From: Propionibacteriaceae bacterium
GTDB lineage: Bacteria; Actinomycetota; Actinomycetes; Propionibacteriales; Propionibacteriaceae
Reading direction: 5' to 3'
Assembly (NCBI GenBank): GCA_031262485.1
Contig: JAISHO010000019.1
Span: 1 to 64,000 of the forward strand
Length of the DNA stretch: 64,000 bases
The translations under genes were made by a program, and so were the position numbers. A model generated the notes under the pieces. The model was not told the origin of the DNA and did no database searches. It saw only the letters and a list, made by a program, of their open reading frames with translations. Numbering within the stretch: the first letter of the stretch is position 1; each line of letters opens with the position of its first letter. Below, piece by piece: positions 39,201-40,457 of this stretch.

Positions 39201-40457
39201 CTCTACGACTTCGAGAACGCCGCCCCGATTTTCGACGGTGTTCACCGCTCGTTCAAGTTCTGCCTCCTCACCACCAGTGGACTCGCCCGCCCAATCGACA
39301 ACCCGACCTTCGCTTTCTTCCTCCACGACCCCCGCGACATCGAATCTTCCACCTTCACGATGACGCCGGAGGAGATCACGCTCGTCAACCCCAACACCGG
39401 CACGCTGCCGATCTTCCGCACCCGACGAGACGCCGAGATCACTCTGGGGATCTACCGTCGCGTGCCCGTGCTCATCAAGGAGGGAGACTCCGACGGCAAC
39501 CCCTGGGGCATCCGCTTCATGCAAGGGCTATTCAATATGACATCTGACTCCCATCTCTTCCACACCCGCGAGGAACTCGAGGACGAAGGCTGGGTACTCA
39601 ACGGCAACGTCTTCGAACGCCCACTCCCGCCCGTCTCCGCCGACGCCGAGAGAGTAGAGAGAGAGAGAGAGAGAGAGTTCGGACCGGAGCTGGAGCGCAT
39701 GATGCCGCTCTATGAGGCCAAGATGATCCACCTCTACGACACCCGCTGGGCCACCTACGAGCCCGATGGAGCCACCCGGCTCATGATCGACGAGGAGAAA
39801 TACGCCCGGAAACCGCCGATGCCGAGGTACTGGGTGCCTGAGGATGAGATCGACAAGAAGCTTCAGGGAAAGTGGGATAAGAACTGGTTCCTTGGGTGGC
39901 GTGATATCTGTCGTGCGACTGACGAACGCACCTGCATTTCCGCAATGCTTCCAAGGGTCGCCGTTGGGAATAAATTACCTTTAGCCTTGGCCGACCAGCA
40001 CCATGATGTCGCTGCGGCCCTTCAATCCATCATGGCTTCATTCGCCTTTGACTTCGTCGCCCGTCAGAAGCTCGGAAGCACGACTATGAACTTTTTCATC
40101 CTTCAACAACTGGCTGCGCCACATCCAGGTTTCAATATTGATGGGCTCCTCCTCGATCGTCCTCTCTATTCCTGGATTGGCACGCGTGTCGACCGCCTCA
40201 ACGCTTGGACGACGACCGCCGAGACCCGGGACCATCTGCGCGCTGAACTCGACGCCCTCATGTTCCACGTGTACGGCCTCAACCGAGAAGACGCCGCCTA
40301 CATCATGGAGACCTTCCCCATTGTCAAGCGCAAGGACGAGGCCGCCCACGGCGAGTACCGCACGAAGCGTCTCATCCTCGAGGTTTACGACGCCATGGCC
40401 GAGGTCATCGGTTCAGGCCAGGTTTATCAGTCCGCGTCCACAAGGGCAGCCACATGA
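36246..40457 (+). CDS. Large adenine-specific DNA methyltransferase (PglX/Eco57I/DrmMI-like)
   Basis: Motif I TVCDPACGSGHFLVGAA; motif IV GNPPWD; 4-nt overlap with the SNF2 gene. Confidence 0.9.
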   Translation: MTTSGAISIEGRIAPTGLLTHLRDGTLGPADSHAPSAYHLGGRQTINDAVSRAWTWLLGSYQSWQEAQVKDPNGFHSTSPTLTRDRWLLPLLQELGFGRLSPSGGIDLAREGTPDHYPVSYQWEQIPIHLLGPGVDLDHRNPGVPGAARAPQAMIQELLNRDDDRLWAILSNGHRLRLLRDSKELAGSAYIEIDLDAIFSNESFADFLLLWKLCHVSRLEPRPGPEGEKTLAECWLEIWRADAARTGERALDHLRDGVTQAIERLGSGFIAHPANGELRDALRSGALSTEAFHRHLLRLVYRLIFLFVTEDRDLLIPTAAVDDHGESGQGDDRHVVSPATKKRYIDYFSTQRLRRQAYRRSGSTTQSDLWQGCSLVLRALGSDDPRRIPLGLPVLGGLFDPTEGKPFSLEKSVAYRPDEPLVTGHLDNHALLKAIRALSWFPTKQGLQPVDYRNLDFEELGGVYESLLELVPRPSVDTHTYKLVSVGGNDRKTTGSYYTPTSLVDTLLASALDPVVDEKLRGAPDQTEAEKRLLSITVCDPACGSGHFLVGAARRLARRLASIRSGEDEPTPSEVRKALRDVVGRCVYGVDLNPLAAELAKVSLWIAAADPGKPLLFLDSRIRVGNSLLNATPALVEEGLPDEAFTPITGDDKKVAAAAKKRNKKERDDDPRHRERFAAYGDNLVLPGLDIRATDQESLFTISGSVTDDDILAREHEELLGAPNDVSIVRGYARRFRDIERSPEHRRRQILCDAWLAAFVWPLKEEAAVPAPGQIYGGERRVGPPAALTTDTLVQLRAALETNSSITHLRSTIAEVETLAHDYHFFHWHIEFPEIFDTVSSPSDKAGPEGWSGGFDCVIGNPPWDLIELNEKEYFSSRDPDISTASGAQRKRLISNLESSDPFLYSEYFQEKHEIDATRKVLSASQRYPLTGHGRINKYSVFAELFSTIVAPHGQAGIIVPTGIATDATTQHYFKDLVTRHRIHSLYDFENAAPIFDGVHRSFKFCLLTTSGLARPIDNPTFAFFLHDPRDIESSTFTMTPEEITLVNPNTGTLPIFRTRRDAEITLGIYRRVPVLIKEGDSDGNPWGIRFMQGLFNMTSDSHLFHTREELEDEGWVLNGNVFERPLPPVSADAERVEREREREFGPELERMMPLYEAKMIHLYDTRWATYEPDGATRLMIDEEKYARKPPMPRYWVPEDEIDKKLQGKWDKNWFLGWRDICRATDERTCISAMLPRVAVGNKLPLALADQHHDVAAALQSIMASFAFDFVARQKLGSTTMNFFILQQLAAPHPGFNIDGLLLDRPLYSWIGTRVDRLNAWTTTAETRDHLRAELDALMFHVYGLNREDAAYIMETFPIVKRKDEAAHGEYRTKRLILEVYDAMAEVIGSGQVYQSASTRAAT
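39656..39677 (+). repeat. (AG)11 simple sequence repeat within the MTase CDS
   Basis: 22-nt uninterrupted AG tract encoding part of ERVEREREREFG. Confidence 0.97.

Follow-up and report, generated by a model that had tools for sequence, protein, structure and literature searches.

What does a repeat prone to slippage achieve when it lies between the catalytic body of a DNA methyltransferase (MTase) and the region that appears to select its target? The question is raised by a 64,000-nucleotide (nt) stretch of DNA from a Propionibacteriaceae bacterium (GenBank assembly GCA_031262485.1, contig JAISHO010000019.1, positions 1 to 64,000 of the forward strand; hereafter, the window). In this window, an operon that we assign with good support to the anti-phage system ARMADA Type I includes a PglX/DrmMI-like gamma-class N6-adenine DNA MTase gene (ArmB-like; 36246–40457, + strand; 1403 amino acids (aa); Pfam Eco57I, MmeI_Mtase and N6_Mtase) that carries an (AG)11 tract. 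The first-pass annotation of this DNA had predicted that the tract makes the MTase a phase-variable ON/OFF gene. The analysis presented here upholds the phase variation by slippage, and suggests that the ON/OFF part is probably too simple. As the removed region corresponds to a target-recognition region (TRD1) with a free-standing second copy (TRD2) encoded downstream, a switch of specificity fits better. On balance, we lean towards a one-tract, binary specificity switch made from a split enzyme, in which the body either carries TRD1 covalently or is released to recruit the free TRD2 in trans, a device that appears to have been retained or rebuilt, with differing repeat units, on several occasions within Actinomycetota.

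An AG tract at the junction between the MTase body and TRD1

The (AG)11 tract (39656–39677, + strand) follows an interrupted GA prefix, GAGAGAGT (39648–39655, +), and encodes MTase residues about 1138–1145, in the linker between the body and TRD1 (39684–40457, +; tblastn boundaries and TRD1 lineage tree). In the assembly it is in frame, reading ERVEREREREFG inside the 1403-aa open reading frame (ORF). At 22 nt it is the longest dinucleotide run in the window, where all others measure 8 nt or less, and the chance expectation of such a run is about 6 x 10−8 per 64 kb, counting both strands under a first-order Markov model. AG runs reaching 18 nt are found at just one other place in the 2.84-Mb assembly, namely contig C12, which has an (AG)13.

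Frame translation showed that the gain of one AG unit leads to ...ESSDRSWSA and a TGA at 39700–39702 (+), and the loss of one unit to ...VRTGAGAHDAAL and a TGA at 39713–39715 (+), exactly as the first-pass annotation had claimed; its description of the tract as uninterrupted and in frame was also confirmed on the sequence. The further claim that truncation spares the catalytic motifs and drops the C-terminal region proved right as well, with DPACGSGHF and NPPW lying upstream and about 255 residues being lost. TRD1 is attached, then, only when the tract is in frame.

What had been overlooked is TRD2 (41645–42493, +), a free-standing 282-aa paralogue with 50% identity to MTase residues 1136–1398, whose homology to the MTase begins just where the (AG)11 tract ends. 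TRD2 has its own ATG, preceded by a GAGGAGG Shine-Dalgarno sequence and overlapping the stop codon of the preceding gene (ATGA). A protein search retrieved 2646 free-standing proteins related to it.

Junction repeats and the second TRD copy in related loci

Related loci were drawn from genome contigs, from a genome library covering the order, the class and two families, and from plasmids, and the linker between body and TRD was measured in DNA. This yielded 93 non-redundant loci with body and TRD, 21 of them with a second TRD copy downstream and 72 without. With thresholds for a simple-sequence repeat (SSR) of 7 nt for mono-, 10 nt for di- and 12 nt for tetranucleotide units, which were chosen after the data had been seen, a repeat was present at the body-TRD1 junction in 21/21 two-TRD loci and in 0/72 single-TRD loci (Fisher p = 2.7 x 10−21, for loci that are not independent); a mononucleotide threshold of at least 8 nt would give 20/21 versus 0/72. 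The repeats in question are G7–G13, C10–C11, AG/GA of 22–28 nt, CA of 25 nt and ACAG of 94 nt. According to the first-pass annotation, a related gene with non-repetitive codons at this position would speak against its prediction; such genes were found only among the single-TRD relatives, all of which lack the second domain.

The tree of MTase bodies requires no fewer than 6 changes of the SSR/two-TRD state and, among the SSR loci, no fewer than 8 changes of unit type, supporting that it is the junction position that has been kept, not one inherited sequence. In a genome of the same genus (G007), the assembly ends inside an ACAG repeat at this junction and TRD2 is on another contig. Searches of phage and viral collections detected no relatives, and plasmids provided only relatives below 60% identity, with no two-TRD locus among the four retrieved.

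Frame states and tract-length polymorphism

TRD1 was in frame in 9 of the 21 two-TRD loci and out of frame in the other 12, compared with 72/72 in frame in the SSR-free loci. Were slippage free-running, one-third of the loci would be in frame, and the 9/21 observed is not different from that (p = 0.36). Out-of-frame tracts are also present in the single-contig genomes G076, G199 and G258. In all loci the off-frame stops occur 6–48 residues after the body, except for one frame of one locus. Of 11 out-of-frame loci checked for stops or second frameshifts, 10 retain an intact TRD1, which suggests that the switch is reversible; the exception is L127, where TRD1 is broken by internal stops and a second frame change.

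The clearest pair of alleles is that of L051 and L124, which are identical over 148 nt around the tract except for G12 (out of frame) in the former and G10 (in frame) in the latter. L051 comes from a metagenome assembly, and its exact G count deserves confirmation. Their TRD1 sequences are 99% identical in DNA and their TRD2 sequences have no alignable stretch, pointing to an exchange of TRD2 on its own. Altogether, the sequence comparisons strongly support phase variability of the junction by slippage.

TRD2 resembles an ordinary recognition domain

All 21 two-TRD loci keep TRD2 open, with a start codon of its own that usually follows a good Shine-Dalgarno sequence. In 17 of them it overlaps the TRD1 stop; the other four, the window included, have a further gene between the two, encoding a DUF1016 protein (window), a DUF1016-like protein (L133), an HNH-like protein as judged by eye (L045) and another protein (L126). 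The ratio of nonsynonymous to synonymous substitution rates (dN/dS) is 0.12–0.37 for TRD1 and TRD2. Within a locus, TRD1 and TRD2 are 40–65% identical, and among nearly identical bodies the two have been exchanged independently.

In the TRD tree, 20/21 TRD1s form one supported set, together with a single fused outsider, and the TRD2s are interspersed with TRDs that single-TRD operons carry fused to a body of this kind. Due to this intermingling, the free TRD2s look like detached ordinary recognition domains of the enzyme, and TRD1 like the dedicated, switchable one. The aligned TRDs are conserved at both ends and vary in the middle, and one column of the alignment separates the two slots, with H in 21/21 TRD2s and mostly T in the TRD1s. 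A separate observation was made at locus L212 (4026–5351, − strand), where a 441-aa ORF consists of a body end plus a TRD, without the rest of the MTase; it is probably a remnant or a solo specificity protein.

A structural model places the tract within the putative recognition region

A 923-aa model of the MTase (predicted local distance difference test score, pLDDT, 84) gave Foldseek alignments to PglX/BrxX and CamA that extend nearly end to end, and its further top Protein Data Bank (PDB) hits were M.BseCI, M.TaqI and MmeI. In all these enzymes DNA is read by the C-terminal part. A description of PglX is given in PMC11341690. The modelled MTase likewise appears to have the gamma-class N6-adenine layout of the PglX/CamA/TaqI type, in which a recognition domain of matching fold comes after the catalytic motifs, at the C-terminus. 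From this architecture we infer that the C-terminal region of the MTase sets its DNA target. The tract is predicted to form a helix between two TRD strands, at a position that tolerates inserts of widely different length in homologues. TRD2 was modelled with a pLDDT of 86.

A proposed switch and its alternatives

The model that we propose is as follows. Replication slippage, which is established for repeats of this kind, would change the frame of (AG)11. With the tract in frame, the MTase body would be translated fused to TRD1; out of frame, a stop 26–31 codons after the body would produce a complete catalytic body without TRD1. TRD2 would be made from its own start codon whatever the state of the tract, and the detached body would recruit it in trans for DNA recognition, so that slippage would toggle two recognition specificities, not merely ON and OFF. 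Methylation is assumed to control defence at this locus. As judged from the sequences, slippage almost certainly attaches and detaches TRD1. That the detached body uses TRD2 in trans, so that the switch changes specificity, is a step that we regard as probable.

Several points weigh against this model. The recognition role of the TRD is drawn from architecture, since TRD2 alone produced no match in PDB sequence or fold searches and no Pfam or NCBIfam match; the TRD identity itself depends on the 923-aa model, whose TM-scores are modest. As the first TRD strands (GNVFE) stay with the body after the split, pairing requires domain complementation. The ATGA overlaps could couple TRD2 translation to that of TRD1, lowering TRD2 in the off state. 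Finally, a permanent split into body and free TRD, which might be expected if trans pairing worked well, was found in 0/72 single-TRD loci.

The coupling argument also favours the main rival, which is plain ON/OFF phase variation. Here the off-frame state would abolish methylation, and possibly defence, and TRD2 would be an accessory, for example a regulator or a partner of the full-length enzyme only. Such is the commonest outcome of SSRs in MTases, phase variation of pglX is called common in BREX (PMC11341690), and a gamma-class MTase is normally inactivated when its TRD region is lost. However, ON/OFF switching leaves unexplained why the SSRs are restricted to loci with a free TRD2, and also why the TRD2s share lineages with fused TRDs. 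We therefore consider it a serious but rather unlikely explanation.

An alternative that we find improbable is that TRD2 is a silent donor, altering specificity by recombination or gene conversion with TRD1, while the tract acts as a separate ON/OFF device. Paralogous domains in tandem, conserved at the ends and variable in between, do resemble hsdS cassettes. Nevertheless, TRD1s and TRD2s occupy different parts of the tree and are 40–65% identical within a locus, so no trace of recent exchange between slots is seen, and TRD2 possesses a start codon and a ribosome-binding site of its own. The TRD tree gives no support to recombination of TRD1 with such a donor cassette, and this reading was rejected.

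Less probable still is programmed ribosomal or polymerase slippage, by which every cell would make both the fused and the truncated MTase: G-runs of 9–13 are plausible slippery sites, but AG, CA and ACAG repeats of up to 94 nt are poor ones and good substrates for replication slippage, and near-identical alleles differ in the tract length of the DNA itself. Equally remote is a neutral stretch of low-complexity coding sequence, or a mistake of assembly. Even though the linker accepts very different lengths and sequences in homologues, and draft or metagenome assemblies underlie the window and some relatives, junction SSRs are present in the single-contig relatives G076, G199, G231, G245 and G258, the one in G199 is the sole AG run of at least 20 nt in its genome, and 21/21 with five units is not explained by chance plus inheritance.

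The operon and its neighbourhood

The operon opens with a gene for a YprA-like/DruE-like DEAD helicase (27973–33252, +; 1759 aa) with an MZB (DUF1998-type) zinc-binding domain (Pfam DEAD, Helicase_C and MZB). A homologue lies upstream in all two-TRD relatives with enough sequence. Its closest named models are those of DruE (PADLOC, up to 323 bits), in agreement with the text of PMC12458937. It is followed by a BrxHII/DrmD/RapA-like SNF2 helicase (33343–36249, +; 968 aa; PADLOC "DpdE" 937 bits and DrmD 284 bits; NCBIfam DrmD 317 bits, below the cut-off of 610) and by the MTase, whose start codon overlaps the helicase stop (ATGA). This order, on the + strand throughout in the window, is kept in relatives, and it is for this set and order of helicase, helicase and MTase that ARMADA Type I was named (Bell et al. 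2025 preprint, PMC12458937): as in the window, a YprA-like helicase precedes a BrxHII-like helicase and a PglX-like MTase, and Actinomycetota is a main home of the type. The GajB-like/RelE ArmD helicase of ARMADA Type II is missing; the genes downstream encode DUF1016, TRD2, McrB and McrC, then a HAD hydrolase. Membership of Type I is well supported but not complete: for the Vsr-type nuclease at the YprA C-terminus, which PMC12458937 assigned with structure prediction, Pfam shows MZB and no nuclease in the last 352 residues.

Two other assignments were rejected. Of the DISARM class 1 set (drmA, drmB and drmC with drmD and drmMI), the scanned ORFs contain a DrmD-like gene, below the NCBIfam cut-off, and a weak DrmMI-like one, with no drmB or drmC. 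Of the 7-deazaguanine (Dpd) system, in which dpdA and the other dpd genes surround dpdE, the same ORFs show only helicase-level similarity to DpdE, DpdJ and DpdF.

Between TRD1 and TRD2 lies the gene for the DUF1016/YhcG PD-(D/E)xK nuclease (40584–41648, +; Pfam DUF1016_N and YhcG_C). TRD2 is followed by an McrB-like GTPase with an Mrr_N domain (42490–44304, +; Pfam AAA_5 and Mrr_N; NCBIfam McrB below cut-off) and an McrC-like protein (44301–45527, +; Pfam McrBC), a pair in agreement with the McrBC/DISARM-like association noted in PMC11090510. Among operons with enough sequence, McrB genes related to that of the window follow 11/12 two-TRD and 27/61 single-TRD operons; McrBC was rejected as a switch-specific partner, as many single-TRD operons also have McrBC neighbours.

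Upstream of the operon, the same defence island encodes a SoFic-like Fic-domain protein (24471–25646). A perfect palindrome of 25 nt, ATTGTCGCGACA-N-TGTCGCGACAAT, is present at 25663–25687, just after the Fic gene, and at 40782–40806 and 40890–40914, within the DUF1016/YhcG gene, where it encodes IVATLSRQ/IVATVSRQ. Its 21-nt core has exactly 3 copies in the 2.84-Mb genome, all within this island. The core is also present twice in a locus from the same genus (L021), adjoining a TRD remnant, and had no match in the viral contigs searched.

Elsewhere in the genome (G000), the (AG)13 run of contig C12 (57397–57422, − strand; positions 7398–7423 of locus L009) separates a 118-aa reading frame from another downstream, the two being at present in different frames, and likely marks a second phase-variable gene. 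G/C runs of 9–14 nt were found on contigs C2, C4, C5, C10, C43 and C48, and the first bases of contig C13 belong to a G9 run, so homopolymers may be where some assembly breaks or switches of this genome sit.

Comparison with known systems

MTases that vary in phase through repeats are already known, as are changes of specificity driven by repeats. The text of PMC12458937, where the system tested was a Type II from E. coli, makes no mention of phase variation, TRDs or frameshifts, and the split, two-gene form was not found in ARMADA in the literature searched. A subset of ARMADA Type I operons has the switch and the free TRD2 in addition to what PMC12458937 describes.

If the proposed model is correct, populations of many actinobacteria would contain side by side cells that differ in the DNA sequences marked and guarded by their ARMADA systems. 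A change of phase would keep the defence armed and make phage with the old methylation pattern foreign again, unlike ON/OFF switching, where protection is traded for silence. It would also help to explain why there are thousands of proteins made up of a free-standing TRD alone, most of them unnamed or annotated as hypothetical, and would provide a natural split MTase whose target is set by an interchangeable subunit.

We know of no free alternative TRD gene tied to the tract of the phase-variable PglX of Pgl/BREX. That system resembles the window in having a phase-variable PglX-type MTase in a defence operon, common in pglX (PMC11341690), although the operon differs. Two systems studied by experiment come closest to the proposed switch. 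In the Type IIG enzyme JHP1272/HP1353-HP1354 of Helicobacter pylori, a homopolymer sets the attachment of a further recognition domain, and the methylated motif changes, as detected by single-molecule real-time (SMRT) sequencing (Krebes et al. 2013, PMC3936762). That enzyme gains its additional domain, in one of the reading frames, downstream of a TRD that is already complete, whereas the tract of the window uncouples the main TRD region, and a separate gene encodes the alternative. In the other system, gonococcal NgoAV, polyG slippage fuses or separates the specificity regions of hsdS1 and hsdS2 and alters the sequence recognised (PMC9577141). NgoAV is, however, a Type I S subunit, and hsdS2 alone is described as having no active product, whereas in the window TRD2 starts from a codon of its own and is related to TRDs that occur fused.
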